Source of the DNA: Bacilli bacterium
GTDB taxonomy: Bacteria > Bacillota_I > Bacilli_A > RF39 > UBA660
Length of the DNA stretch: 64,000 nt
Assembly: GCA_017541325.1 (NCBI GenBank)
Contig: JAFXZI010000004.1
Span: 1-64,000 of the forward strand
Reading direction: 5' to 3'
Shown: positions 3,132 through 49,635 of the stretch, piece after piece
Layout of the letters: each line of letters starts with the position of its first letter
Numbering within the stretch: position 1 is the first letter of the stretch
Position numbers and translations under genes: made by a program
Notes under the pieces: model-generated
Database searches by the model: none
What the model was told of the DNA's origin: nothing
The model's input: only the letters and a program-made list of their open reading frames with translations

Positions 3132-6100
3132 AATTAAATAATTAATTAATCTTTCAGCTGATTTTCCATCACAATACTTAAGATATTTTTCTTTAAATTC
3201 ATTTTGATTAGTATAATCAAAGTTTTTAATATCTTTAATTTCATCTATTAAATCATCTGTTGTAAAAATAACTTTACCATATGGATTTTCTTCTAATTTA
3301 ATAGTTGTTTTATTATTAACTTCAACTGTATCACTAGGCCATTTTCTAATTATAACAGGAACACCTATTAAAGGAGATTCAAGTAAAGCATCATCATAAT
3401 CACCAATTATAATATCTGATGCAAGCATTAATTCTCTAATTGATATTTTACCAGTAACATCTTTAGCAAATCCACGAATATTATATTTGTTAGAAATATA
3501 GTCTACATCTTTATTATTCAAATGAATTTGTAATACTACATATTCATCTTTAAAAGCATTCTTTAATTGATCAAGATTAATAGTTTTAATATACTGACTG
3601 TCAGCATTACGATATCTATTATAAGTAATATAGGCAATTACTTTTTTATTTTTTGCCTTTCTAAATAATTTATTTACCTTTTTACGAGCAAGTTTCTTTT
3701 TGTATTCATCAAAATACATATCAGTAATTACAGATCCATTATTAATAAATTTCGTATCAGGAGTTGTTGTATATATTTCATAATTAATTCTTGATACTAA
3801 TTCTGATGGACTTTGAATAGCAGATACTTCTAATTGATATTTATAGTTTTCAAGTAAGTTAACATTTTTAAGTGGTGTATTAGTAATTAAACCTTTAGCA
3901 AAATATGTCATCGCACTACTTCCTAAAACAATAATGTCACTTTCTTTTCTAACTTTTAACTCAGAGAATAAATAATATGGTTCGGCTAAAATAATAAATT
4001 TAGATTTAGCCATTTCAGTTACTAAATATTTATTTCTAATATCCATATAAGTAACATCATAATCAATATTATCTAATACTTCTATTAATGATGAATATTT
4101 GTAATAAAAACTATTACTAGTAGTAATAACTAATATTTGATCTTTAACTTTATTATTCTTAACTGCTTTTCTATATTCACTTTTAAAGGCTTCAGCTTTA
4201 TCACGATATTTATCAAGAGTCTTTCTACTTTTCTTACTTCTATTAATTTCAAATCTTTTATATTTCTTTTCAACAGATACATGTTTCTTATCATCTGTTA
4301 AATATAAATCATAGAATTTGTTCTTAACTTTTTCAGATGATCTTTCTAAAGACATAGTAGGATTCTTAGTTAAATCTCCTATTTTAACTTTATTAAATCT
4401 AATATTATATATATCTTTTACATTAAGACTCTTAGCATATTCAGTAACATCTCCATATAATTGAACAGAATCTTCTTGTTCTGCAAGAATATCAGTAAAT
4501 AAGCTCCATGTAGGTTTAGATGTGTAATAAGAAATAGCAAAATCTATTAGATTTCTTCCAATTCTATCTTTATCTAAGAATGGCATATTACAATAATCTT
4601 CAGCAAACATAGGTAAGTATTCTTCCATAGATCTAAATAATGAATAATCACATTTTTGCTTAACAATTACTGGTTCCCATTTATTATCAACTTTTTTGTA
4701 TTCAGTAATACTCTTATAATCTATACAAGCAAATATTGATTCTATAAATTGTTGAGCTTCTGGATTTGCAGTAAAGTTATATCGAATATTTAACTTATCA
4801 CTAGGTAGTGTACTTCTAGAATAATAGAACTTAGTAGGAACATCTTTTTTAACAATGTAGTCCCATAATCTAGTAAAATTTTCTTGAGTATATCCTCTAC
4901 CCCAATATTCAATAACAGAGAATTGTTTATTTTTATCTATTTCTTGTTCTAGATATCCACAAGAAGCTTCTCTTAGTTTAGCAGCTTTTTCTAAAAGTAC
5001 TTCTTCATATTTTTTAGATGAACTAAATATTTCTGTTAATTCTAACATTTCTTCTTTAGTAATCTTTTTAACTGTAGAAAAAGCTTCAAGTTCTGGGAAT
5101 ACTTCTTTAAATTCTTCTGCATTTAAATTAAGAGCTTTTAATAAATTTTTAAAGCTAGTAACATCAGCAAAGTTACCATGTCCTTCACCCCAGAAATCTA
5201 TATCTATATGATCTATAAAAGATGGAATTCTCCAAGTCTTTCTAGATGCATAAATATATTTAAGATCTAATTTTAAATTATCTTTCTTATTAATTACATC
5301 TCCTATACGTATTAATTGATGTCCATCACGCGAAATAAAGTAAACTACTTTATCTTTATCTTCTTTAGCATGATGAAGTGCCCATCTAACATAAGGAACA
5401 AATAATAATGAAACATATGAATATACAAATTCTTCTTTAATATTTCTATGTTTATCTCTAAATCTTGCTAAAGCAGCCGCTACTAAATAAGAATCATATG
5501 TACCAATTGTTCTTACTAAATCATTTTCATAAGTATTAAACTCTATTGGTTCTACCGCTTTAGTTTCAATATTCATATTTTTTGGCATTGCATTATCAGA
5601 TTTAGGATTATCTCCTGTATGTATCCATTTACCAAAATCATATTCTTTTCCAAATATTTTATATACTTCAACAAATAGAGTCTTGTCGGCTTTTTGGTAT
5701 CCATATTCACTAGATAAGAATAACTCTAAATCAGCAAGCATAGGATCTGCTTTCTTAAGCATTTTCTTAATAAAGTCTTTAGGTAGATACATATCACTAA
5801 TTAAAACAACTTTTTCACCTGCCGCTACAAACTTTTTAACTTCATCTATTCTTTCTTTGATTGGAATAACATTTTCAAGTTCAGCTTCCATCTCTAACTT
5901 CATAAGAATATCTTTTTGTTTATCAGTTATATTATAAAGAGATTGTAATCTATCAAATATTTCAGTAAATTGTATTTCTACTTTTAGACTATCTCTATCT
6001 ATCTTAGTACGATTGTAATATTCTCTAACATTTAATTCTGCATTTGTTCTTAATTTAGGATAATTAGAAATAAAATAGTCAGAAAAACCTTGTCTATTAT

Positions 6101-35712: not shown

Positions 35713-35742
35713 AAAAAAAGCAAATCACTTAAAGTGATTCGC
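35713..35742 (-). terminator. Terminator of the bacteriocin operon
   Basis: An 11-bp stem with one mismatch (35720-35730 with 35731-35742) followed on the minus strand by a T7 run. Confidence 0.8.
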
Positions 35743-35748
35743 TGTTTA

Positions 35749-35913
35749 TTAGCATAATTTTCCGGTAATGCTTCTTCTTAATGAACTTCCTAAACTTCTG
35801 CCCACTTCTAAAACTACTTTAGTTAAACCAGTAACAGCATTTATAAAAGTTCCTGTTAAAGATATTCCTCCTCCGCTAATTAAATATAGTTCTTCTTTTT
35901 CTATCTCTTTCAT
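35749..35913 (-). CDS. Double-glycine-leader bacteriocin peptide A
   Basis: A 54-residue peptide. Its leader MKEIEKEELYLISGG is a textbook class II leader with Gly-Gly at 14-15. The mature part (39 residues, GISLTGTFINAVTGL at the start) is hydrophobic then basic, ends in LC, and has no internal Cys pair. I start at the ATG at 35913, with AGGAGG 4 nt upstream, rather than six codons earlier. The leader fits the C39 peptidase of the ABC exporter in the same operon. It is last in the operon, before the terminator. Confidence 0.82.
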   Translation of the reverse strand: MKEIEKEELYLISGGGISLTGTFINAVTGLTKVVLEVGRSLGSSLRRSITGKLC

Positions 35914-35921
35914 TTTTCCTC

Positions 35922-36062
35922 CTAATTGCATACTAGTGGTCTAGTATATCCATCATAAACACCTATAAGGAAAACTGCTCCTAATAATGATCCTAATATG
36001 ACCCACGATGCTATACCGCCACCATTAATTCTTTCAAGTTCTTCAGGACTTATTTCTTCCAA
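35922..36062 (-). CDS. Double-glycine-leader bacteriocin peptide B (TTG start)
   Basis: A 46-residue peptide that starts with TTG at 36062; GGAGGT lies 5 nt upstream. The leader MEEISPEELERINGG ends in Gly-Gly at 14-15. The mature part of 31 residues has a hydrophobic helix with small-residue spacing (GSLLGAVFLIG) and ends VYDGYTRPLVCN. This resembles short helical class II bacteriocins. The peptide A ribosome-binding site begins right after this stop, so A and B are likely co-translated and may work as a two-peptide pair. Simple ATG-based gene calls miss it. Confidence 0.8.
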   Translation of the reverse strand: MEEISPEELERINGGGIASWVILGSLLGAVFLIGVYDGYTRPLVCN

Positions 36063-36065
36063 AAA

Positions 36066-36500
36066 TTACCTCCACACTGTCTTAAATACATATTTTATTA
36101 ATGAATCTTCGGAAATAACAATTCTAGCTTTAACTATTTCATTTTCTTTCAAATTATTTTTCCCTATTTTTATTTTTATTTGTTTATAATAGTTTTCATT
36201 TAAATAGATGTTTTCTTCACTAATGCTATTAATTGTGTAAGCAAATACTTTATTATCTATTTTTATTTTATTATTTTTTGTTATTGTTTTTAAATCATTA
36301 GTTAGAACATACATATTTAAATATTTTTCTTTATATTCCAAAGATACATTATAATACTCATAGTATTTAAACGTTTTATTTATAAACAACAAACCTATAA
36401 TAAACAGAACAAATGTAAGTAAATATATATATTTTATTTTTTTAATATTTCTTGTTGCATATATTTTATAATCATTAATATCAACTAACAGATAAAACAC
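36066..36500 (-). CDS. Short HlyD-like bacteriocin secretion accessory protein
   Basis: The 144-residue protein has a cytoplasmic N-terminus, one membrane helix (about 24-41) and a C-terminal beta region ending GKNNLKENEIVKARIVISED, like the last barrel of HlyD/LcnD adaptors. Those proteins are usually about 450 residues with a coiled coil, so this is a minimal form or a remnant that still stays in frame. The start appears to be a GTG (36500) that overlaps the ABC exporter gene by 20 nt. No in-frame ATG follows nearby. Confidence 0.6.
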   Translation of the reverse strand: MFYLLVDINDYKIYATRNIKKIKYIYLLTFVLFIIGLLFINKTFKYYEYYNVSLEYKEKYLNMYVLTNDLKTITKNNKIKIDNKVFAYTINSISEENIYLNENYYKQIKIKIGKNNLKENEIVKARIVISEDSLIKYVFKTVWR

Positions 36501-38568
36501 CGTCCTTTAAATCAAATCTTTTATCATATAAATCTGAATTATCTAATCTATGAGAAATGATTAAAAATGTTTTATCTTTATACTCATTAAATATATTAGT
36601 TAGAATTATTCTTTCTTTTTCTATATCAATTTGGCTTAAACTTTCATCAAAAATGTATATTTCACTATCTTTAACTAAAGATCTAGCTAGAGCAATTCTT
36701 TGTTTTTCTCCTCCACTTAAATTAAAACCATTTTCTTCAATTACAAAAGATGCTCCTATTGGATATTTGGAAATTATTTCATCTACTTTAGTTATATTAC
36801 ATATCTTTAAAAATCTATCATAATCAATGTACTTTTTTATGGTCACGTTTTCATATAAAGTATCATTATATAAAACTTCATTTTGAGATACATAACTGAA
36901 GTTTTCTCTTAATTCTTTTATATTAAAATAATTAATATCTTTTTCATCAATCATAATCATTTCATTAGAAACATTAAAATATCTTAATATCAGTTTAACC
37001 AAAGTACTTTTTCCACTACCACTATTTCCCGTTATTAATACCTTTTCTCCTTTTTTTATGTCAAAATTGATATTATTTAAGATATTGTGTATTCCATCAT
37101 ATGAATAAGTTAAATTATTAGCTGTAATATTTCCTTTTATTCTTTTATTCAAATATTTTTCATTAAAAGTCAAATCTTCTTTTTCAATATTATATAGATC
37201 ATCAACTCTTCTAATAGATTCTTTAACTTTCTTTAAAGATAAATCAAGATTAATAATATTCTTAATTGGTTCTAAATAATATATTATTAAACTATTAAAG
37301 GTTATTAACTCACCTAATTTTATACTATTATTTAACACTAAAATTGCTCCAAAATAATTAATAACAATAATACCTATATAATCTATAATATTTTTGAATG
37401 AGTCTTCTAGAATTATTACCTTATTAAAGTTAAAACTATTATTTAACAATTTATTATATAATGATAAAAATTTATTATTTATATTTTCTTCTAAAGATAA
37501 TCCTTTAATAGTGTCTACGCTACTTAAAGATTCATATAAATAAGAATTTACTTTTGCTTGGTCATTTTTAGTAATAGAAACATATTTTTTTAAAATATAA
37601 TTAAAAACTATAATTATTAAAAAATATAATAATGCTATAAAAAAAGAAATCATTGTTAATTTAAAACTAATACTTAATATTGAGAAAAAAACAAAAATTA
37701 CAAGTAATAGATCAACAAATACAGTAACAAACAAATTACTTATCATATCTCTTACTTCATTAAGATCTGTAATTCTTGATATTATTTCTCCATTTGATCT
37801 GTTTTTAAAATATAGGTAAGGAAGTGATAATATGTGCTTAAAAATATCTGTAACCATAATATAATCCAGTTCATGATTTATATAGTTTATTAAATAGTTT
37901 CTAGTATAAATATTAATCATTTTAAAAGTACTTAATATAATCATAATTACAAAAATAAATTTTAAATTCATTATAGAGTTATTAGAAATAACATTATCTA
38001 TTATAAATTGTAAATTAAATGACGTTATAATGTTTATTAAAACACATAATAATGAGACACAAAATATTATTAGAAATGTAGCTTTATATTTTAGAATTAA
38101 TGAAATAATACTCTTTTTTATATTACTTTGTTCTTCATAAAAAGGTATTGTCTTTGTTGGGGTAAACAAAATGAATTGGTTCGTAGTTATTTCCAAAAAC
38201 TCAGTATATGACATCAATCTTCTTCCAACAGCCGGGTCGGCAATTGTTAATATTTTTTTCTTACGATCAATTTTATGAATTACAATAAAATGTCCTAAAT
38301 TATTATTAATTATTACATGTGCTACACAAGGAAACATATTATCTTCTAAATCAAAAATACTACCTCGAACTGCTTTAGAAATAAATCCCAAATTGTTCAT
38401 AGCATTCATCATCAAATATGCATTTGTCCCATCCTTTGTAGTTCTAGTTAATTCTCTTAAATATTCAATGCTAACATTACCACCATAAGTTCTTATAATA
38501 GTTAAAAGACAACTTACACCGCAATCTTTAGGACCTTCTTGCATTACACATTGATAATCTTTAAACAA
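36481..38568 (-). CDS. Peptidase-containing ABC transporter for bacteriocin export (C39 family)
   Basis: The 695-residue protein has a C39 peptidase domain (1-135: QEGPKDCGVSC with the catalytic Cys, GHFIVIHKI with the His, IADPAVG with the Asp), six membrane helices (about 155-435), and an ATPase domain: Walker A TGNSGSGKSTLV, signature NLSGGEKQRIALARS, Walker B IYIFDES. It cuts the leader after Gly-Gly and exports the peptide. It starts at a TTG (38568) with GGAGGTG 7 nt upstream. The two target peptides follow in the same operon. Confidence 0.92.
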   Translation of the reverse strand: MFKDYQCVMQEGPKDCGVSCLLTIIRTYGGNVSIEYLRELTRTTKDGTNAYLMMNAMNNLGFISKAVRGSIFDLEDNMFPCVAHVIINNNLGHFIVIHKIDRKKKILTIADPAVGRRLMSYTEFLEITTNQFILFTPTKTIPFYEEQSNIKKSIISLILKYKATFLIIFCVSLLCVLINIITSFNLQFIIDNVISNNSIMNLKFIFVIMIILSTFKMINIYTRNYLINYINHELDYIMVTDIFKHILSLPYLYFKNRSNGEIISRITDLNEVRDMISNLFVTVFVDLLLVIFVFFSILSISFKLTMISFFIALLYFLIIIVFNYILKKYVSITKNDQAKVNSYLYESLSSVDTIKGLSLEENINNKFLSLYNKLLNNSFNFNKVIILEDSFKNIIDYIGIIVINYFGAILVLNNSIKLGELITFNSLIIYYLEPIKNIINLDLSLKKVKESIRRVDDLYNIEKEDLTFNEKYLNKRIKGNITANNLTYSYDGIHNILNNINFDIKKGEKVLITGNSGSGKSTLVKLILRYFNVSNEMIMIDEKDINYFNIKELRENFSYVSQNEVLYNDTLYENVTIKKYIDYDRFLKICNITKVDEIISKYPIGASFVIEENGFNLSGGEKQRIALARSLVKDSEIYIFDESLSQIDIEKERIILTNIFNEYKDKTFLIISHRLDNSDLYDKRFDLKDGVLSVS

Positions 38569-38630
38569 CCCTTATCACCTCCTCACTAGTATTATTATCT
38601 TTTTTATTTATGATTTCCTGAAAACAAATA

Positions 38631-38658
38631 AAAAAAGATCAACTTTCGTTGACCTTTT
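38631..38658 (-). terminator. Terminator of the aquaporin gene
   Basis: A stem of about 10 bp (AAAGATCAAC/GTTGACCTTT, one G-T pair, loop TTTC) followed on the minus strand by a T6 run. Confidence 0.85.
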
Positions 38659-38663
38659 CTCTA

Positions 38664-39434: not shown

Positions 39435-39508
39435 GCAGATGTAGTTTAATGGTAGAACCTCAGCCTTCCAAGCTGACTGCGTGGGTCCGATTCCCATCAT
39501 CTGCTCCA
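39435..39508 (+). tRNA. tRNA-Gly(TCC)
   Basis: A 74-nt cloverleaf with acceptor GCAGATG/CATCTGC, anticodon loop CTTCCAA (TCC, Gly) and an encoded CCA. The T loop reads TCCGATT, again with C at position 55. Its 3' end borders the tandem integrative elements and appears to be their attachment site. Confidence 0.95.
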
Positions 39509-39512
39509 TTTG
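39502..39512 (+). other. Putative attachment site A (tRNA-Gly 3' end, left end of element 1)
   Basis: The 11-bp TGCTCCATTTG that ends the tRNA recurs exactly at 47399-47409, and its first part (GCTCCA) at 51725-51730. Each copy is followed closely by a terminator hairpin, and the first two by a small ORF and a recombinase gene. I infer an attL-type junction. Confidence 0.5.
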
Positions 39513-39547
39513 TAAAAATCGTCGGAACAACCGATGTTGAGATAAAG

Positions 39548-39574
39548 CTTAATTCGAAAGAATTAAGTTTTTTT
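39548..39574 (+). terminator. Terminator after tRNA-Gly
   Basis: An 8-bp perfect stem (CTTAATTC/GAATTAAG, loop GAAA) and a T7 run. Confidence 0.85.
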
Positions 39575-39598
39575 GTGTCTAAGAAAGGTTGTGATGAT

Positions 39599-39880
39599 AT
39601 GTTAAATATTATTAAAGAAAAACTTGATTTAAGCCCTGATTTAAAGAAAAAGATTGATTGGGCTAAGAATTATACTTCTACTTCAATAACTCTTGAGAAA
39701 GGTCATTTAATTAGATTAGAACCTAGTAATCTTGCTTATGTAGATCCTCATAAAGTTAAAATCAATAATTATACATTCTTGTTCTTTAATGGTGTTGATA
39801 CTTTCTATGTTAATACTCTAAATGATAAACATAATTTGTCTGAACTTGAAAAATACTTTAAACTAGCTAAATGTTCTTAA
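39599..39880 (+). CDS. Small protein preceding serine recombinase 1 (element 1)
   Basis: A 93-residue protein starting at the ATG at 39599 (AAAGG about 11 nt upstream). It is mixed alpha/beta with no recognisable motif; segments include LKKKIDWAKNYTSTSITLE and FFNGVDTFYV. It lies between the tRNA terminator and the operator/promoter of the recombinase, the same position as the 95-residue protein at 47488 in element 2. Such a place would suit a recombination directionality factor or a regulator, but the two share no clear sequence, so this is inference only. Confidence 0.6.
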   Translation: MLNIIKEKLDLSPDLKKKIDWAKNYTSTSITLEKGHLIRLEPSNLAYVDPHKVKINNYTFLFFNGVDTFYVNTLNDKHNLSELEKYFKLAKCS

Positions 39881-39884
39881 TACT

Positions 39885-39929
39885 ATTCCCTCAATAAGGA
39901 ATTGACAAAATTTTAAAAAATGATATTAT
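39885..39929 (+). promoter_or_regulatory. Operator-like block and promoter of serine recombinase 1
   Basis: A 22-bp block (39885-39906) containing the imperfect palindrome TTCC...GGAA runs directly into a TTGACA -35 box (39902-39907), with TATTAT at 39924-39929 (16-bp spacer). Element 2 has the same block at 47781-47802 with a single difference (21 of 22 bases). Confidence 0.7.
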
Positions 39930-39973
39930 AAATAACCAATGAAAGAGGTAACTCTAGAAATGGAGGTACAGCT

Positions 39974-40051
39974 ATGATAATAAAACACAAGATATCGAAT
40001 ATTTATAATATTAAATTTAATGAGGAGTCAGTAGTATTTAGACTTTACTAG
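39974..40051 (+). CDS. Leader peptide upstream of serine recombinase 1
   Basis: A 25-residue ORF (starts MIIKHKISNIYN, ends VVFRLY) with GGAGG 7 nt upstream. It is preceded by a 5-residue mini-ORF (39960-39977, MEVQL) that overlaps its start. Its last codons form the left arm and loop of a strong terminator hairpin (40022-40073), with the stop codon just before the right arm. A ribosome on this ORF would block the hairpin, the layout of a translation-coupled attenuator. Confidence 0.6.
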   Translation: MIIKHKISNIYNIKFNEESVVFRLY

Positions 40052-40073
40052 ATACTATTGTCTCCTCTTTTTT
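40022..40073 (+). promoter_or_regulatory. Attenuator hairpin in the recombinase 1 leader
   Basis: 16-nt arms (40022-40037 and 40052-40067) pair with one mismatch and one G-T pair, followed by six T. It lies between the promoter and the recombinase ribosome-binding site (AAGGAGG at about 40080), so it should stop transcription unless opened. Confidence 0.75.
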
Positions 40074-40091
40074 AGTAATAAGGAGGTTTAA

Positions 40092-41927
<1,836 letters not shown>

Positions 41928-41942
41928 TCCTTAGCCCACGAA

Positions 41943-42026
41943 ATCTTGTATGGAGAATCCGTACAAGATATCTAGGGGGTTATATATCTTGGATGTCCCA
42001 GATATGGCCCAAAATAACCCACACTA
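41943..42026 (+). other. Candidate origin of transfer (oriT)
   Basis: Between the recombinase and the MobV gene lie a 12-bp hairpin (41943-41954 with 41958-41969, one G-T pair) and a second nested structure: outer arms GGGTTAT/ATAACCC (41977-41983, 42014-42020) and inner arms ATATCTTGG/CCCAGATAT. At 42015-42026 the minus strand reads TAGTGTGGGTTA, close to the TAGTGTG/TTA nick sequence known for MobV relaxases such as pMV158 MobM, with two extra G. Position and structure suit an oriT; the strand of nicking is inferred. Confidence 0.6.
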
Positions 42027-42041
42027 AAAAGGAGGAATATT

Positions 42042-43454
42042 ATGGCTGAATTACCTTATTCATTTCATCTTGGAAGTAATAAAAATAGAAAAGCATCAGC
42101 AAGAAGTAATGCTAGAAATAATGTAAGTGGTTCTTCTTCACTTGCTAATAATGGAATACAAAATTATCAGCAATTATCAAAAGTAAATAATCATGATTTT
42201 AGAAAATATGAAAATGATAATGATTATATTTATCAATTAAAAGGAACTAATGATATTGTTTATGATGTTAAAGAATTTTATAAAACTGAATTTGAAGAAG
42301 CAAGACTTGAATACAATAATAAACAATCTAGACCTAGTAGAAGAATTGATGATTATTTTGAATATGTTAATAAAGATGAAAAAAGAGATCTTGCTTGTGA
42401 GATTATAATTGAACTTGGTAATAAAGAATATTGGGATACAAAAGATTTTGAATTTAAAAGAGAAATGGTTAATGTATATGAAGAACATCTACATGATTTA
42501 GAAAGACTAGTTCCAGAGTTTAAAATAACAAATGCAGTTGTTCATTTAGATGAAACTTCACCTCATATGCATATAGTTGGAGTTCCAGTTAAAGATGGTT
42601 GTAAAACAGGTCTATCAAAACAAGTAAATAAGTCATCAGTTTTTACTAAGGAAAGACTTGAACATATACAAAATGTTATGAGAGAAAAATGTATTGATAC
42701 TTTTAATAAATACTTTGAAAAAGAAAATGCTACTCTTAAAACTAAAGAAAAAGGAAGAAACAAAGATATCCATGTTAAAGATATGGTTAATTATCAAGAA
42801 CTAAAAAAAGAACTAGAAATTAATAAAAGAAGTATTGATAAAAATAATGATAAGATAAAATCGATAAACACCTCCTCAAAGGAGTTAAAAGATTTATTAT
42901 CTGGTTTAGAAGAATCTAGACTTGGTGGTTATAAACTTAATAATAAACAAAAAGAAAGATTACAAGATTTAATTAAAGATGTTGAATCTATAACTGATTA
43001 TTTCGATAATTATAAAAATATAATTAATAATATATCTTCAATTAATGATAATTTGAAATATCAAAAAGATAGAAATAATAAAGTTGAAAATGATAATAAT
43101 AAACTTATTAAAGAAAATCAAAAACTTAAAATGAAGAATACTGAGTTAAAAGAAGATAGAGATTTTGTTCATGCAGTTATGGATAAGAGATTAGACGAAA
43201 GAAAAGATTTTATAACTTATCTATGTAAAAATGCTAATAGTAAAGATCCAACTACATCTAGATTTTTTAGACAAGTTGTTAATGATATGAATAGTAAAAA
43301 CTTAATAACTGATAAAGAACATAGAGTTATATTTAATCCACCTAGAACTATAAATAAATCAGAAATAAATAAAGCACTAAGTTCTATTAATAGAGAAATG
43401 GATGAAGCTGCTGAAGAATTTTATCAAACAAATAAAAGTGACTATGAATTGTAG
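42042..43454 (+). CDS. MobV family relaxase (Mob/Pre)
   Basis: The 470-residue protein has the MobV catalytic motif AVVHLDETSPHMHIVGVPV (HxDE...PHxH) at about residues 165-180, an N-terminal region with YSFHLGSNKNR, and long coiled coils (about 245-395). MobV enzymes nick at oriT and lead the strand during mobilisation by a helper conjugation system. No type IV secretion genes are visible in the window, so element 1 would be mobilisable rather than self-transmissible. AAGGAGG precedes the start. Confidence 0.93.
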   Translation: MAELPYSFHLGSNKNRKASARSNARNNVSGSSSLANNGIQNYQQLSKVNNHDFRKYENDNDYIYQLKGTNDIVYDVKEFYKTEFEEARLEYNNKQSRPSRRIDDYFEYVNKDEKRDLACEIIIELGNKEYWDTKDFEFKREMVNVYEEHLHDLERLVPEFKITNAVVHLDETSPHMHIVGVPVKDGCKTGLSKQVNKSSVFTKERLEHIQNVMREKCIDTFNKYFEKENATLKTKEKGRNKDIHVKDMVNYQELKKELEINKRSIDKNNDKIKSINTSSKELKDLLSGLEESRLGGYKLNNKQKERLQDLIKDVESITDYFDNYKNIINNISSINDNLKYQKDRNNKVENDNNKLIKENQKLKMKNTELKEDRDFVHAVMDKRLDERKDFITYLCKNANSKDPTTSRFFRQVVNDMNSKNLITDKEHRVIFNPPRTINKSEINKALSSINREMDEAAEEFYQTNKSDYEL

Positions 43455-43464
43455 CCACTTTTTT
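43434..43464. terminator. Bidirectional terminator between relaxase and restriction genes
   Basis: 11-bp arms (AAAAGTGACTA/TAGCCACTTTT, one mismatch) with A/T runs on both sides, overlapping the end of the relaxase gene. Confidence 0.75.
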
Positions 43465-44299
43465 ACATATTATTATTTATATACTCAATTAAGCATTGAA
43501 TAGTAAACATATCAAAATCAACATCATCTTTTAAGGATAATTCAAATATAATATTTGGATTATTAGTTGAAGAAGTTATTTTTACTTCATACTTTCCATT
43601 TCCTTTATTAGATAAAAAATATCTTTTTCCCTCAGGTAATACATCACTATCAATATAGCATTCATTTTTACTTAAATCTAAAGGTAAATCTAAATATAAT
43701 TTTTTACCATTAGTATTAAGTGAATATTTATATTTTGAAAATCTTAAATCTAAGTGTTTTTTAAAATCATCATAATATGTTTTTGGTAAGTCTTGACTTC
43801 CACTTTTCTTTCTTCTAAAAATAGTTTTTATGTTAAAGAATTTATTAAATTGGTCTAAAGAAAATACTTTTTTATTTCCATCATTATCAACTGATATTAT
43901 AAATTCAACATTTTTGTTTTTCATATTTGAAGCAATCCAACTAAAAGCTATTGTTTCAGGAACTGGAACAACCATTCCCGTTTGTGCAACTTTACTATAT
44001 AAATTATAGTTATCATTTAGTATATTTATAATTTCTTCAGAATACTCATTTGCTTTAAACTTATTTTTACTACCATAAACAAATTTATTATTTTTAATTT
44101 CAACAACAAATTGAGATGTTTGAGATGCAGGCATCTTTGTTTCTACATAAAATTTTTTGCTATTTGAATTAATTGTTATTTCTATATCTGGAATTGTACT
44201 ATCAGCTTTTCCATATTGTTTTACTAACACATCATAATCTTTTAACATTTGTTGAAGATATCCTGTCATTTCACTTTCAAAATCTTCCCATTTACTCAT
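43463..44299 (-). CDS. Probable type II restriction endonuclease paired with the C5 methyltransferase
   Basis: The 278-residue protein lies 10 bp after the C5 methyltransferase gene on the same strand. Near residues 38-55 it has PDIEITI followed by FYVETKMPAS, which fits a PD-(D/E)xK nuclease core (Asp ... Glu-x-Lys). It has no other recognisable domain. Position and the motif make a restriction enzyme likely; the recognition sequence is unknown. It could also be an unrelated nuclease. Confidence 0.65.
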   Translation of the reverse strand: MSKWEDFESEMTGYLQQMLKDYDVLVKQYGKADSTIPDIEITINSNSKKFYVETKMPASQTSQFVVEIKNNKFVYGSKNKFKANEYSEEIINILNDNYNLYSKVAQTGMVVPVPETIAFSWIASNMKNKNVEFIISVDNDGNKKVFSLDQFNKFFNIKTIFRRKKSGSQDLPKTYYDDFKKHLDLRFSKYKYSLNTNGKKLYLDLPLDLSKNECYIDSDVLPEGKRYFLSNKGNGKYEVKITSSTNNPNIIFELSLKDDVDFDMFTIQCLIEYINNNM

Positions 44300-44309
44300 C
44301 CTAAACCTC

Positions 44310-45272
44310 CTAAATATCTTTTAATCCTTTAAAAACTTCTTTTAGTAAATTAATTGGAACACTATTACCAAATTGTTTTAATGATTGACTATCATTTTCT
44401 ATTATTTTAAATTCTTCAGGAAATCCTTGTAGTCTAGCAGCTTCCCTTGGACTTAGTTTTCTTACTTTACCATTAATATAATAAGCACCTGTTTTTGAAG
44501 CAGCTCCACCACTTGAAGCAGCTAGAGTTATTCCTATACCATTTTCATGGTAAATTCTATTTCCTTGACCACCTTGTCCAATAACACCAATTTGTAAAGG
44601 TTTTTGAACTTTACCATTTTTTATTGCTTCGTTTAGTTTCTTTTCATCTATATGAATATCTTTTCTTTTAAGTATATATTTTTCAGTAATTGAATCATCT
44701 TCTTTTATCTCACTGATAGTTACAAACTTTTTAGATGGTTCTGGAAATTTAAATTCCCCATTATCAATATCTTTTCTTATACAAACTATTGTAATTCTTT
44801 CTCGATTTTGTGGTAAATTAAAATCTTTTGCATTAAGAACTTTATAATATATATTGTAATTTAAACTATCAAGAGTATTTGAAATTACTTCAAATGTTGC
44901 TCCACCATTATGTGCTTTTAAATTTTTGACATTTTCTAAAAATATAATTTTTGGTTTATGATAACTAACAATTCGTACTATATCAAAAAATAATGTTCCT
45001 CTTGTATCTTCAAATCCTTTTTGTTTTCCTGAAATACTAAAGGGTTGACATGGAAACCCAGCACACAAAATATCAAAACTTGGAATATCTTTTTCATCTA
45101 TTTTTGTTATATCTCCATATGGAATTTCTCCAAAATTCAAATTATAACTTTCTTGACAATATTTATCCCATTCAGATGAAAAAACACATTTACACCCAAA
45201 AGATTCAAGTGCATATCTAAATCCACCTATACCAGCAAATAAATCAATAAATTTCATTTTCTTTAGTTCCAT
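44310..45272 (-). CDS. DNA (cytosine-5) methyltransferase
   Basis: The protein of 320 residues has the C5 motifs in order: I DLFAGIGGFRYAL, IV AGFPCQPFSISG with the catalytic Cys, VI FLENVKNL, VIII NLPQNRERI, IX KLSPREAARLQGFP, and X LKQFGNSVPINL. It methylates cytosine at the site the neighbouring nuclease presumably cuts. A TATAAT -10 box (45303-45298, minus strand) puts the transcript start near 45291, so I use the ATG at 45272, not the one at 45293, which has no ribosome-binding site. Confidence 0.93.
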   Translation of the reverse strand: MELKKMKFIDLFAGIGGFRYALESFGCKCVFSSEWDKYCQESYNLNFGEIPYGDITKIDEKDIPSFDILCAGFPCQPFSISGKQKGFEDTRGTLFFDIVRIVSYHKPKIIFLENVKNLKAHNGGATFEVISNTLDSLNYNIYYKVLNAKDFNLPQNRERITIVCIRKDIDNGEFKFPEPSKKFVTISEIKEDDSITEKYILKRKDIHIDEKKLNEAIKNGKVQKPLQIGVIGQGGQGNRIYHENGIGITLAASSGGAASKTGAYYINGKVRKLSPREAARLQGFPEEFKIIENDSQSLKQFGNSVPINLLKEVFKGLKDI

Positions 45273-45369
45273 GATATAACACCATCCTCTCATATAAATT
45301 ATACCATAATTCAGGGCAATATAATAACTTTTATATGAATTTATGATAAAATATTTGTGAGGTGTTTCT

Positions 45370-45747
45370 ATGAAAGTATTAACTTTAAAACAACCATGGG
45401 CAACACTTGTTGCAGAAGGTATTAAAAAATATGAATTTAGATCATGGAAAACTAATTATAGAGGCAAAATACTAATTCATGCTGGAACTGGAATTGATAA
45501 AAAAGAATTAGAAAAATTTAAAGATTTAAATTTAGAATTTCCATCAAAAAGAATACTAGCAGAAGTAGAAATAGAAGATTGTTTAGAATTAAATGATGAG
45601 TTAAACAAAAAGATAATTGCCGAAAAAAACATAGCATATGGTTCTAAATATAGAACTGGTTATGCATGGAAATTAACTAATGCTAAAAAGTTAGATTATA
45701 ATAAAGAAGTAAAAGGTCAGCTTGGTTTATGGAATATAGATTTATAA
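45370..45747 (+). CDS. ASCH domain protein 1 (element 1)
   Basis: The 125-residue protein fits the ASCH fold: VLTLKQPWATLVAEGIKKYEFR, then SWKTNYRGKILIHAG, LAEVEIEDCLEL and GYAWKLTNAKKL. ASCH proteins bind RNA or modified nucleosides; some members (YqfB) hydrolyse N4-acetylcytidine. It is divergent from the methyltransferase gene and 20 bp before the 511-residue protein gene, probably in one operon with it. A close relative lies in element 2 (50205-50585). Confidence 0.85.
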   Translation: MKVLTLKQPWATLVAEGIKKYEFRSWKTNYRGKILIHAGTGIDKKELEKFKDLNLEFPSKRILAEVEIEDCLELNDELNKKIIAEKNIAYGSKYRTGYAWKLTNAKKLDYNKEVKGQLGLWNIDL

Positions 45748-45766
45748 TATTATTGGGAGGTTTGGA

Positions 45767-47302
45767 ATGAAAATAAAAAATAAATTTAGTAAACAAAGAA
45801 TAGATAAAGATAATCTTTTGTTAAATAAAATAATGAATATTAAAAAAAGTATAAGAAATAAGACTTCTAAGATTATACCATTAACAGATATGGAAAAATT
45901 TCTATATATAGATGATGATTTTGAAAGAAAATATGATGAAAAAAATACTACTATACCTAAAAATAAATATATAAGATTAAATGATATTTTTTTATTAAAT
46001 ATTGTTTCTAAGAAAGATTGCCATAACCTTTATCCAGGAATTATTAATCTATATAAAGATAATTATTTGAAAGGCTACTTAGGTGGAGAACTTAGGCATA
46101 AAGATATAAAAAAATGTATAGATAGTTATATAACTTCAACAAACCATCATGGTTGTGCTGAATTGTGCAGATTATCACCAAAGGATAACGAATTATATGA
46201 GTTATGTGATTTTATAATAATTCATATTTTTGAAATATCTAATGACTTATTAGGAATATCTTTTGATTTAAAAGTTACTGAAAAATTTAATGATGAAATT
46301 AATAATATATTTAATGAAAAAGTAAATATAAAAACTATTTATGATAAATTAAAATATAAAAAGAAGTATCTATATAGCAGAAGTAGAACTTCCGTCAAAC
46401 AAAAACGTAATAATGATTATGAAGATTTTATTATTGAATTCAAATGTAGATTCAATAAATTATTTAATAAGTATATTCCTCTTCAATTAGATTATGAAAA
46501 TAAACCACCAATAAGCATTAACGCGTATCAAACTAACTTTAAAGTGACAAATAGATCAGAATCATTTTATCAGGATTTAGAAATATTGGAACATTATTCC
46601 GCTAGAGAACTTGAAAATATAAGTGTATGTCTAGGAAAAAAAGGAGAAAGCGATTCATTTGTAGATACTACAATGTGGTATAACATTATGATATCTCGAG
46701 ATAAAATTGACCGTTCAAATAGCGTTCTCTTTTATCTTAAGGAAAAAGAATATGAAATAAAACACACTAGTAGTGAGTTTACAAACATTTTTATTAATTC
46801 TATTGCATTTTACCTTTTGGATGAAATGCAAGAAGATATAGCAAATGAAAAAATTAAATTATATAATTGTAAAACTAGTAAAATAAGAAAGAATTATAAG
46901 CAGTATGAAATATTAAATTCTAAATTTCATAAATACAGTTCTATATTTAATGGTATTGATATTCATAAATTCCATTATAATGATGAATATATAACAAAAG
47001 GTTTTGAAAATATTAAAAATATATATGATGATTATAATAAACAATTGTTAGATATTAAAAAAGAATATGAATTTAGAATTAATATCAATAATATTAAAAG
47101 TACATTTTGGATTTCAATTATATCAGTTATCATTGCAATAGGTGCTTTAGGGTTAAGTATATTTTTTGAATATAGAAATAAAAACGATAATTCTATTAAA
47201 AATATAGAATCTAAGGTTGAAATTAATAATAATGAAATAAAAGAAGTAAATGATTATTTAAATCAAATAAAAGATTTAATTAAAAAGAATAATGAGAAGT
47301 GA
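45767..47302 (+). CDS. 511-residue membrane-anchored protein of unknown function
   Basis: I do not recognise this family. Residues 1-440 are mostly helical and soluble, with FYQDLEILEHYSARELENIS and MWYNIMISRDKIDR as distinctive stretches. One membrane helix (about 447-468, SIISVIIAIGALGLSIFF) and a C-terminal coiled coil (about 475-508) end it. A GGGAGG site precedes the ATG, 20 bp after the ASCH gene. It is the last gene before the inner attachment-like site at 47.4 kb, a common place for cargo such as defence genes. Confidence 0.7.
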   Translation: MKIKNKFSKQRIDKDNLLLNKIMNIKKSIRNKTSKIIPLTDMEKFLYIDDDFERKYDEKNTTIPKNKYIRLNDIFLLNIVSKKDCHNLYPGIINLYKDNYLKGYLGGELRHKDIKKCIDSYITSTNHHGCAELCRLSPKDNELYELCDFIIIHIFEISNDLLGISFDLKVTEKFNDEINNIFNEKVNIKTIYDKLKYKKKYLYSRSRTSVKQKRNNDYEDFIIEFKCRFNKLFNKYIPLQLDYENKPPISINAYQTNFKVTNRSESFYQDLEILEHYSARELENISVCLGKKGESDSFVDTTMWYNIMISRDKIDRSNSVLFYLKEKEYEIKHTSSEFTNIFINSIAFYLLDEMQEDIANEKIKLYNCKTSKIRKNYKQYEILNSKFHKYSSIFNGIDIHKFHYNDEYITKGFENIKNIYDDYNKQLLDIKKEYEFRININNIKSTFWISIISVIIAIGALGLSIFFEYRNKNDNSIKNIESKVEINNNEIKEVNDYLNQIKDLIKKNNEK

Positions 47303-47398
47303 TTGCTTTATCTTCTATTTAAGTATATAATTAATATGTAATTAAGATTTATCTCAGTTACATTTGTCGGTAATTGTTTCTCAAACGAGATACACAAT

Positions 47399-47409
47399 TG
47401 CTCCATTTG
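47399..47409 (+). other. Putative attachment site B (junction of elements 1 and 2)
   Basis: An exact copy of the 11-bp tRNA-Gly end (TGCTCCATTTG), without the rest of the tRNA. An imperfect hairpin (around 47372-47398) lies immediately to its left. It is followed by a terminator, a small ORF and recombinase 2, repeating the order seen after tRNA-Gly. Confidence 0.5.
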
Positions 47410-47414
47410 AATTC

Positions 47415-47448
47415 AAAGTACGTCAGAAATGATGTACTTTTTATTTTT
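47415..47448 (+). terminator. Terminator at the left end of element 2
   Basis: 11-bp arms (47415-47425 with 47430-47440, one G-T pair, loop GAAA) and a T-rich run. It occupies the same relative place, and has the same GAAA loop, as the tRNA-Gly terminator in element 1. Confidence 0.8.
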
Positions 47449-47487
47449 CAAAGTGTTTTCTTTTGTAGAAAGGAGGCACTTTTTTCT

Positions 47488-47775
47488 ATGAAAATAAAAT
47501 TATTACATGAATTAAATCCTAGTCAAAGAACATTAAAAACAATTAGTTCTACTCATCCATATAAAATACAAATAACTAGTGGCAAAATTAATGTGCTTGA
47601 ATCTACTAATATTGAAACTATTATTCCTATAAGATATTTATTATTCTATAGAACTAAAATAATTGAATTTTATGAATATCCTGAAGACCTGGTTAAAGGA
47701 AATAATTTTATTAATCTTCAAACAAAACAAACATTTAATAAAAATGAATTAAAAACATATATATCAAATTATTAA
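47488..47775 (+). CDS. Small protein preceding serine recombinase 2 (element 2)
   Basis: A 95-residue protein from the ATG at 47488 (AAAGGAGG about 11 nt upstream). It has PYKIQITSGKINVLES and YLLFYRTKIIEFYEYPE, of beta character, and no known motif. It lies in the same position as the 93-residue protein at 39599, ahead of the shared operator/promoter block. A role as excision factor or regulator is possible but not shown by sequence. Confidence 0.6.
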   Translation: MKIKLLHELNPSQRTLKTISSTHPYKIQITSGKINVLESTNIETIIPIRYLLFYRTKIIEFYEYPEDLVKGNNFINLQTKQTFNKNELKTYISNY

Positions 47776-47780
47776 AATTC

Positions 47781-47826
47781 ATTCCCTAAATAAGGAATTG
47801 ACTTTAATAAAATTGAAGTCTATTAT
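47781..47826 (+). promoter_or_regulatory. Operator-like block and promoter of serine recombinase 2
   Basis: The 22-bp block at 47781-47802 is the near-identical partner of 39885-39906. It merges with TTGACT (47798-47803), a 17-bp spacer, and TATTAT (47821-47826). Unlike element 1, no leader ORF or attenuator follows. Confidence 0.7.
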
Positions 47827-47871
47827 AAAAAACTAATAACAAGTCTTATTATTTAGAAAGTGAGGTTAAAT

Positions 47872-49635
47872 ATGAATAATAAAGTTGCTATATATGTAAG
47901 AGTATCAACTGATGAACAAAGAGATAACGGATATTCAATTGATTCACAACTTCGTATGTTAAAAGAATATGCTGATAAAAACAATTATAATATAGTTGGA
48001 ATATATAATGATGCTGGATACTCTGGTAAAAACTTAATGCGACCTGAAATGCAAAGATTATTAAAAGATATTGAAGATGGTAAAATAGATATTCTTTTAG
48101 CTATTAAAACTGATAGATTAACAAGAGATGGTTATGATGGATATTGGTTACTACATCAATGCGATAAATATAATGTAAGAATTGAATTAACTCTTGAACC
48201 ATTTGATATATCTACTGCTAATGGTGAAATGATGTTTGGACTTAATTTAGCCTTTGGACAAAGAGAAAGAAAAGAAATAAGTGCTAGAACTAAACGAGGA
48301 CTAGAACAAATGGCTATTGAACATAAACACCCTAATAAACCACCATATGGCTATACTAGAGATCCAATAACTAAACATTTAGAAATAGAGCCTATTGAGG
48401 CTGAAGTTGTTAAAGATATATTTAATATGTCAGTTGATGGAATACCTTATAGACAAATAGCTGATAAAATGAGAAATGAAAATAGATATTTAAAACGAGG
48501 TAAATGGTCTGATTCTAGAGTGTGTAAAATACTAGATAACGAAATATATATTGGAACTTTTAGATTTGGTAAATATAATCGTAAAAAGAAAGAACAATTA
48601 GTAATTGAGAATTATTGTGAACCAATTATTAGTAAAGAAATATGGAATAAATCTAGAAAGCAAATAAAAAGAAATTGTCACGAAAACTATGGAAAACATA
48701 CTCATATATTTTCTAATTTAGTAATATGCCCTCATTGTGGAAATACATTAAGTTCAACTTTTTCTCATAAGAAAACTAAAGATGGTTATCAAGACTATTA
48801 TTTTCTAGTTTGTAAAAACAAAAAATGTGTTGGTAAAGGATTACATTATAGTTGTGATAGATTAGAAAGAACTTTATCCAAATTATTAAATGAATTAATA
48901 ATCTATATGACTGAAAACCCAGAGAATATTATTAAACCTAAAATTGATACTAATAAAGATTTTGAGAATATAGAAAAAGCAATTCAAAAATTAAAACAGC
49001 AAGAAGAAAAATTAGTTGAACTTTATTTATCAAGTAGTTTAGACGTAGAAACTATTAATCGTAAAAATGAAATGATTAAAAATGAAATTACTGAACTTGA
49101 AACAAAGAAAAAAGAATTAAACTATGAAGAACCGCTAGACATCAAAATAGAATTAATCGATTCTTTTAATAATACTAATTTAAACAATTATTTAATGAAT
49201 AAAGAATTACCTATTTATCAAAAATGGTTAAAGTTAGATCCTGAAACTAAAAAATTAATATTACATAAATTTATTAGACAAATAGAAATAAGTCGAGATG
49301 AAGATTATTTTATAGATATAACAAACATTAAATTTGAGAAACAATATTTTAATAAAAATGCAGATGAATTCTTAAATGATTTAATGTTATCATTAAGAGA
49401 AGATTATAAAGGATTTGAATATAAACAAATTAGAGATATGGATACATTACTAACTTTATATGAAAATTATAATTCAATTAGTGTAGAAGATTATTTAAAT
49501 AATAATCATAATATTCATGATGACTTTAAAGAACAAATAAATAATCTAGTATCTAATCAAGGTGTATTAGTAGGAGCAATTATACTAGATAATAAGTTTG
49601 TTGATGAAGTCTTGTTTATCCCAAAAATGCCATAA
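47872..49635 (+). CDS. Large serine recombinase 2 (element 2)
   Basis: The 587-residue protein has catalytic Ser12 and Arg10 in AIYVRVSTDEQ, IKTDRLTRDGYDG, the helix RKEISARTKRGLEQM, a Recombinase domain with YGYTRDPITKHLE, and a zinc ribbon (about 280-310, ICPHCGNT...CKNKKC), then a coiled coil. Domain order is as in recombinase 1 but the sequences are clearly diverged, so these are not recent duplicates. I start at the ATG at 47872 (GTGAGG upstream). It has its own terminator. Confidence 0.93.
   Translation: MNNKVAIYVRVSTDEQRDNGYSIDSQLRMLKEYADKNNYNIVGIYNDAGYSGKNLMRPEMQRLLKDIEDGKIDILLAIKTDRLTRDGYDGYWLLHQCDKYNVRIELTLEPFDISTANGEMMFGLNLAFGQRERKEISARTKRGLEQMAIEHKHPNKPPYGYTRDPITKHLEIEPIEAEVVKDIFNMSVDGIPYRQIADKMRNENRYLKRGKWSDSRVCKILDNEIYIGTFRFGKYNRKKKEQLVIENYCEPIISKEIWNKSRKQIKRNCHENYGKHTHIFSNLVICPHCGNTLSSTFSHKKTKDGYQDYYFLVCKNKKCVGKGLHYSCDRLERTLSKLLNELIIYMTENPENIIKPKIDTNKDFENIEKAIQKLKQQEEKLVELYLSSSLDVETINRKNEMIKNEITELETKKKELNYEEPLDIKIELIDSFNNTNLNNYLMNKELPIYQKWLKLDPETKKLILHKFIRQIEISRDEDYFIDITNIKFEKQYFNKNADEFLNDLMLSLREDYKGFEYKQIRDMDTLLTLYENYNSISVEDYLNNNHNIHDDFKEQINNLVSNQGVLVGAIILDNKFVDEVLFIPKMP

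Follow-up and report, generated by a model that had tools for sequence, protein, structure and literature searches.

Across the bacterial order RF39, a small operon encodes a C39 peptidase-containing ABC exporter together with two Gly-Gly peptides, pepA and pepB, which we first met in a window of 64,000 nucleotides of DNA from a 1.25-Mb genome (97% complete). We give about even odds to reading it as a core two-peptide secretion operon that is inherited vertically and acts on a target membrane in the style of class IIb bacteriocins. A sequence-only reading of the window had presented the operon as a compact local curiosity; it instead proves to be a near-universal core locus of the order, apparently passed on by vertical descent. 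Small Gly-Gly peptides are easily missed in annotation, and this missed pair ranks with the most constant traits of a large gut-associated order whose members are mostly uncultured and have small genomes. A literature search over a limited set of terms found no paper on this operon.

Anatomy of the operon

All four open reading frames lie where first described, on the minus strand: the exporter (36,481–38,568; 695 aa, TTG start), a short HlyD/MFP-like accessory protein (36,066–36,500; 144 aa), the pepA precursor (35,922–36,062; 46 aa, TTG start, leader MEEISPEELERINGG, mature part 31 aa) and the pepB precursor (35,749–35,913; 54 aa, ATG start, leader MKEIEKEELYLISGG, mature part 39 aa). A strong intrinsic terminator lies 3′ of pepB (35,719–35,743, minus strand), and that of the aquaporin gene (38,630–38,661, minus strand) parts this gene from the operon; two terminators were found against 0.4 expected. 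The order exporter–accessory–pepA–pepB, with its own terminator, is confirmed as a real four-gene unit. Its G+C content is 22%, compared with 26% for the window. Beyond the aquaporin gene, positions 39,435–49,635 hold a tRNA-Gly and, after it, a large serine recombinase (40,092–41,927), a mobilisation-like protein, a cytosine methyltransferase beside a possible restriction enzyme, and another serine recombinase (47,860–49,635), probably an integrated mobile element.

TTG and GTG starts had been proposed for these genes. Those at TTG stand for the exporter and for pepA, where GGAGG precedes the start at 36,062, and pepA is indeed the peptide that ATG-only calling loses. The GTG start of the accessory gene is uncertain: its relatives begin at a TTG aligned with codon 5, where the window reads TTA. 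A longer pepB reading frame begins at 35,931, but the inner ATG at 35,913 is most likely the start because AGGAGG sits 4 nt 5′ of it, within the longer frame. The proposed mature lengths of 39 aa (pepB) and 31 aa (pepA) survive this revision, being unaffected by the choice of start.

The exporter, product of the sole C39 gene of the genome, matches the Pfam models PF03412, PF00664 and PF00005. The C39 residues Q10, C16, H93 and D111 are invariant in it and its homologues (n = 18), as are the Walker A, Walker B and signature residues of the ATPase across the same 18 homologues. Both the C39 catalytic residues and the ATPase motifs expected of a peptidase-containing ABC transporter (PCAT) are thus intact, and the early identification as a C39 exporter is supported.

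The accessory protein comprises a transmembrane helix and an adaptor β-barrel domain only. Its AlphaFold (AF2) model (pLDDT 90.8) consists of a long membrane helix and a small β domain. A Foldseek search with this model gave no match at E < 0.001; with a second structural aligner, the 21 best matches, spanning model residues ~45–135, were all membrane fusion proteins, led by BesA (Z 9.4). The protein shares the β-barrel domain and N-terminal membrane helix of HlyD, MacA and BesA but, unlike them, has neither a lipoyl domain nor a coiled-coil hairpin in its 144 residues. The early description as a short HlyD-like protein is borne out by the modelled fold, which points to a HlyD-type adaptor reduced to anchor and barrel. 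The sequence changes fast (mean identity 20%).

Mature pepA is hydrophobic, of membrane-spanning length, and carries a GxxxG motif (GVYDG) and a C-terminal Cys. The pepB precursor has a predicted helix at 17–50; its mature part is cationic and carries GRSLG (GxxxG), an RR pair and likewise a C-terminal Cys. Over about 110 loci (109 for pepA), pepA retains the leader GG in 97–98%, the GxxxG glycines in 98/99%, Asp in 85%, Pro in 95% and Cys in 100%; the corresponding values for pepB are 99–100% (GG), 100/100% (GxxxG), 91/94% (RR) and 99% (Cys). A lack of leader conservation in related loci had been named beforehand as a refuting outcome; with GG at 97–100% the leaders are conserved, and both products are Gly-Gly peptides as proposed. 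Mean identity is 40% for the mature peptides compared with 35% for the exporter.

The window's pepA scores 20.5 bits against TIGR03949 (lactobin A/cerein 7B), just below the cut-off of 21.5, and its pepB matches no bacteriocin family model, TIGR03949 included. Among 31 pepA members, at E ≤ 0.01, 26 match TIGR03949, with relatives reaching E 3.9e-8, and the lactococcin G-beta model picks up 15. A search of PDB sequences with pepA and pepB gave weak matches only, mostly to the leader part, the CtA peptide among them. Of the proposal of a two-peptide bacteriocin, the class IIb-like anatomy (GxxxG in both peptides, family-model matches for pepA) therefore stands, while the activity is predicted.

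Distribution, descent and chromosomal place

Relatives' contigs were scanned with the exporter alignment, and profiles built from adjacent reading frames in relatives were used to search for pepB. Of the order's 288 genomes, 270 (94%) carry pepB, mostly as a single copy, and these cover 97 of 102 genera. A class-wide sample held full-length pepB only in the window's family (43 of 46 sampled genomes); matches elsewhere in the class were weak and did not extend past the leader and the first residues of the mature part. No full-length pepB was found outside the order in the class or phylum samples, and plasmid and phage records gave no match. By these searches, the peptide pair appears to be specific to the order. 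Nearly all named relatives are metagenome-assembled genomes labelled uncultured Bacilli, Erysipelotrichaceae, Tenericutes or Mollicutes, with a gut or rumen origin in many cases; RF39 is uncultured and mostly walled (PMC10868615).

Exporter, pepA and pepB lie on one strand and in fixed order in all 145 loci holding all three, a recurrence well in excess of chance, with the accessory gene detected in 102, clearly absent (a gap of <200 bp) in 37 and uncertain in 6. Exporter distances track those of the housekeeping neighbour yqeY (r = 0.69), which argues for inheritance mainly by vertical descent; nearest neighbours in exporter and yqeY agree in 47 of 72 cases against ~3 expected. A genome of genus g56 carries two diverged pepA/pepB pairs in tandem (locus L209, minus strand, oriented 4357–4915). 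Another, G023, has an exporter locus with a truncated pepA and no pepB, with pepB and the further gene pepC, described below, on a different contig (L041, L273), possibly a split or decayed locus.

The locus had been placed between ftsA and the aquaporin gene. This holds in the window's genus, in which ftsA rather than rpsU adjoins the operon; across the order, rpsU lies downstream in 118 of the 177 loci whose flanks were long enough, a count in which some species appear twice. In two loci that were read through, the genes continue in a chain that we take, from sequence recognition, to be rpsU-yqeY-...-ybeY-dgkA-cdd-era-recO. With ybeY, cdd and era as queries, a C39 gene was found immediately ahead of ybeY-(cdd)-era in 12 of the examined loci from Mollicutes and from other families of the class that have small genomes (L352, L354–L357, L359–L361, L365, L366, L370, L371), with rpsU on its other side in L360 and L361. 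One reading frame intervenes in L369, and the arrangement differs in L362, L363 and L367. The C39 reading frame of families f7 and f18 is only ~400 aa long, seemingly without an ATPase domain. Because the exporter occupies the same position before ybeY-era in Mollicutes, both it and its chromosomal place look ancestral and common to the two groups.

In nine mycoplasma loci the exporter is accompanied by an accessory homologue and the same downstream genes. Like the window, the Mbov_0121 (NF045998) and MAG1140 (NF045999) families pair a C39 ABC exporter with a following short membrane protein, and MAG1140 resembles the accessory protein in place after the exporter and in size. Unlike the window, the nine mycoplasma loci showed no adjacent Gly-Gly peptides, and the window's proteins score below the family cut-offs (accessory against NF045999, 24.5 bits; curated cut-off 35). 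No convincing pepA homologues were found in Mollicutes with the exporter. A literature search with limited wording found no paper on C39 or bacteriocins in mycoplasma. Since mycoplasmas and relatives have the same exporter at this locus, one may ask what they secrete. A candidate substrate of the mollicute C39 exporter is a protein of 130 aa whose Gly-Gly leader, MQKLKDNELKDIKGG, is similar; its gene (L353, 1539–1931, minus strand) lies far from the exporter. Another possible C39 substrate, from family f18, is a Gly-Gly peptide of 59 aa that ends in LPGGYRFEWK and is encoded near a radC-like gene (L364, 1151–1330).

Near-universal, mostly single-copy pepB, vertical inheritance, an exporter at an ancestral housekeeping position common to Mollicutes and a motif kept across ~100 genera would also suit a pair that the same exporter secretes as a core self-directed or communication factor, whether a signal or a needed membrane or envelope component. 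Most loci lack a recognised dedicated immunity gene, which fits as well. We regard this alternative as possible but doubtful: it leaves aside the class IIb-like anatomy and family-model matches, a motif-mimicking membrane protein beside pepB in 40% of loci resembles self-protection, and none of the loci listed showed a receptor kinase next to the operon. Just as tentatively, the secreted heterodimeric pair could be an order-defining physiological system, with the Mollicute-shared ancestral exporter and the leaderless mimic as an optional antidote. If the peptides are antimicrobial, they would give a whole clade a means of competition or feeding; if they are not, they would represent a new core function for the Gly-Gly peptide class.

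Peptide pairing and the pepB look-alike pepC

The two peptides covary given the exporter (partial Mantel 0.34; 0 of 2,000 permutations). In an analysis of 179 pepA/pepB pairs (Neff 155), with positions numbered relative to the first GxxxG glycine in each peptide, pepA Asp(+3) and pepB Arg(+1) were the top covarying pair. An antiparallel GxxxG register (i + j = 4) reached a mean z of 1.05 (column-permutation p = 0.0004). Parallel pairing was rejected, having no covariation support (mean z 0.05, p = 0.59). The antiparallel signal survived swaps of pepB among close relatives, in which information loss on i + j = 4 was about twice the average loss; i + j = 12, two helical turns off, ranked slightly above it. 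In the sister-pair test the Asp–Arg pair was nominal (p = 0.003) and outside the best pairs, which counts against that contact. The sister-pair tests are supportive of the antiparallel register but not decisive, and we infer pairing and orientation from covariation. The two-component bacteriocin acidicin P has been modelled as antiparallel with an Asp–Arg contact, and lactococcin G as parallel (PMC10434283).

pepC, first met in eleven loci as a leaderless reading frame directly 3′ of pepB, comes after pepB in 57 (~40%) of the 140 loci that offered enough sequence; none was found in the window's genus. Its product is membrane-anchored and shares the GxxxGxxxR motif of pepB (49 sequences: GxxxG 100/100%, Arg 92%). 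The C-terminal half aligns to that of pepB (hhalign E 2.6e-5, probability 75%) and does not align to pepA. The antiparallel register found for pepA and pepB also shows covariation between pepC and pepA (p = 0.0002), whereas no pepC–pepB covariation was found. These features make pepC a candidate mimicry immunity protein, perhaps a membrane-bound decoy for pepA, and a directly testable idea on how two-peptide systems protect their producers. The covariation with pepA, the motif common to pepB and pepC and the missing Gly-Gly leader would also be expected of a third functional subunit, perhaps in a three-helix complex, or of an intracellular inhibitor or chaperone of pepA; we think this rather improbable, and with ~60% of loci lacking pepC it would not be essential to the pair.

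No immunity gene had been evident at the window, and none is recognised in its genus. Immunity had been suggested to lie in the accessory protein, an idea we reject as unlikely: accessory and peptides occur apart. The accessory protein appears to go with the exporter, since it is present in mycoplasmas without adjacent peptides and absent from 37 loci with both peptides.

Proposed mechanism and comparison with known systems

Building on the anatomy, conservation, synteny and adaptor fold, all shown computationally, we propose that the C39 domain would cleave each of the two precursors behind its Gly-Gly, with export by the ABC part assisted by the reduced HlyD-type adaptor. Outside the cell, the GxxxG motifs would let pepA and pepB pair in the membrane, in a probable antiparallel arrangement that places pepA Asp close to pepB Arg. 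The pair would act as one unit, in the class IIb manner, to permeabilise a predicted target membrane. The conserved Cys residues might serve in disulphides. Where present, pepC may capture pepA and so spare the producer.

We reject the idea that the operon is an ordinary bacteriocin cluster gained by horizontal transfer and incidental to this genome: the tRNA-Gly, serine recombinases and mobilisation-like gene beyond the aquaporin would suit it, but order-wide presence, the vertical signal, the lack of any plasmid or phage match and the genus's retention of the operon beside ftsA make it exceedingly improbable. Bacteriocins are usually patchy and fast-changing in distribution, a pattern from which 94% presence, mostly in single copy, and strong retention of a motif depart. 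Also speaking against a class IIb weapon are the absence of a recognised immunity gene from the window's genus and ~60% of loci and the lack of a bacteriocin family match for the window's pepB.

Class IIb bacteriocins are defined as including a GxxxG or GxxxG-like motif in both peptides (PMC8538875), and their clusters comprise two precursors, a transporter, an accessory protein and an immunity gene (PMC6957408), a gene set that the five-gene form with pepC matches. Like lactobin A/cerein 7B (TIGR03949), lactococcin G and acidicin P, the operon has two adjacent Gly-Gly precursors with a C39 exporter, an accessory protein and GxxxG in both peptides (98–100%, ~110 loci). It would thus work like a class IIb system and is a putative member: antimicrobial action, which in class IIb pairs is synergistic at equimolar ratio, is predicted only, the means of immunity is in doubt, and the family-model scores of the window lie slightly below what is required, although relatives score higher.

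Several features set the operon apart. The accessory protein is about one third of the usual length, and the register suggested by covariation is antiparallel, unlike the parallel model of lactococcin G. The dedicated membrane immunity protein of class IIb systems acts by a mechanism that is still a mystery (PMC6957408); here the immunity gene is either missing or a pepB look-alike. What appears new in relation to class IIb is the order-wide, apparently vertical and nearly obligatory presence, a pair in which each peptide ends in one conserved Cys, and the mimic gene pepC.
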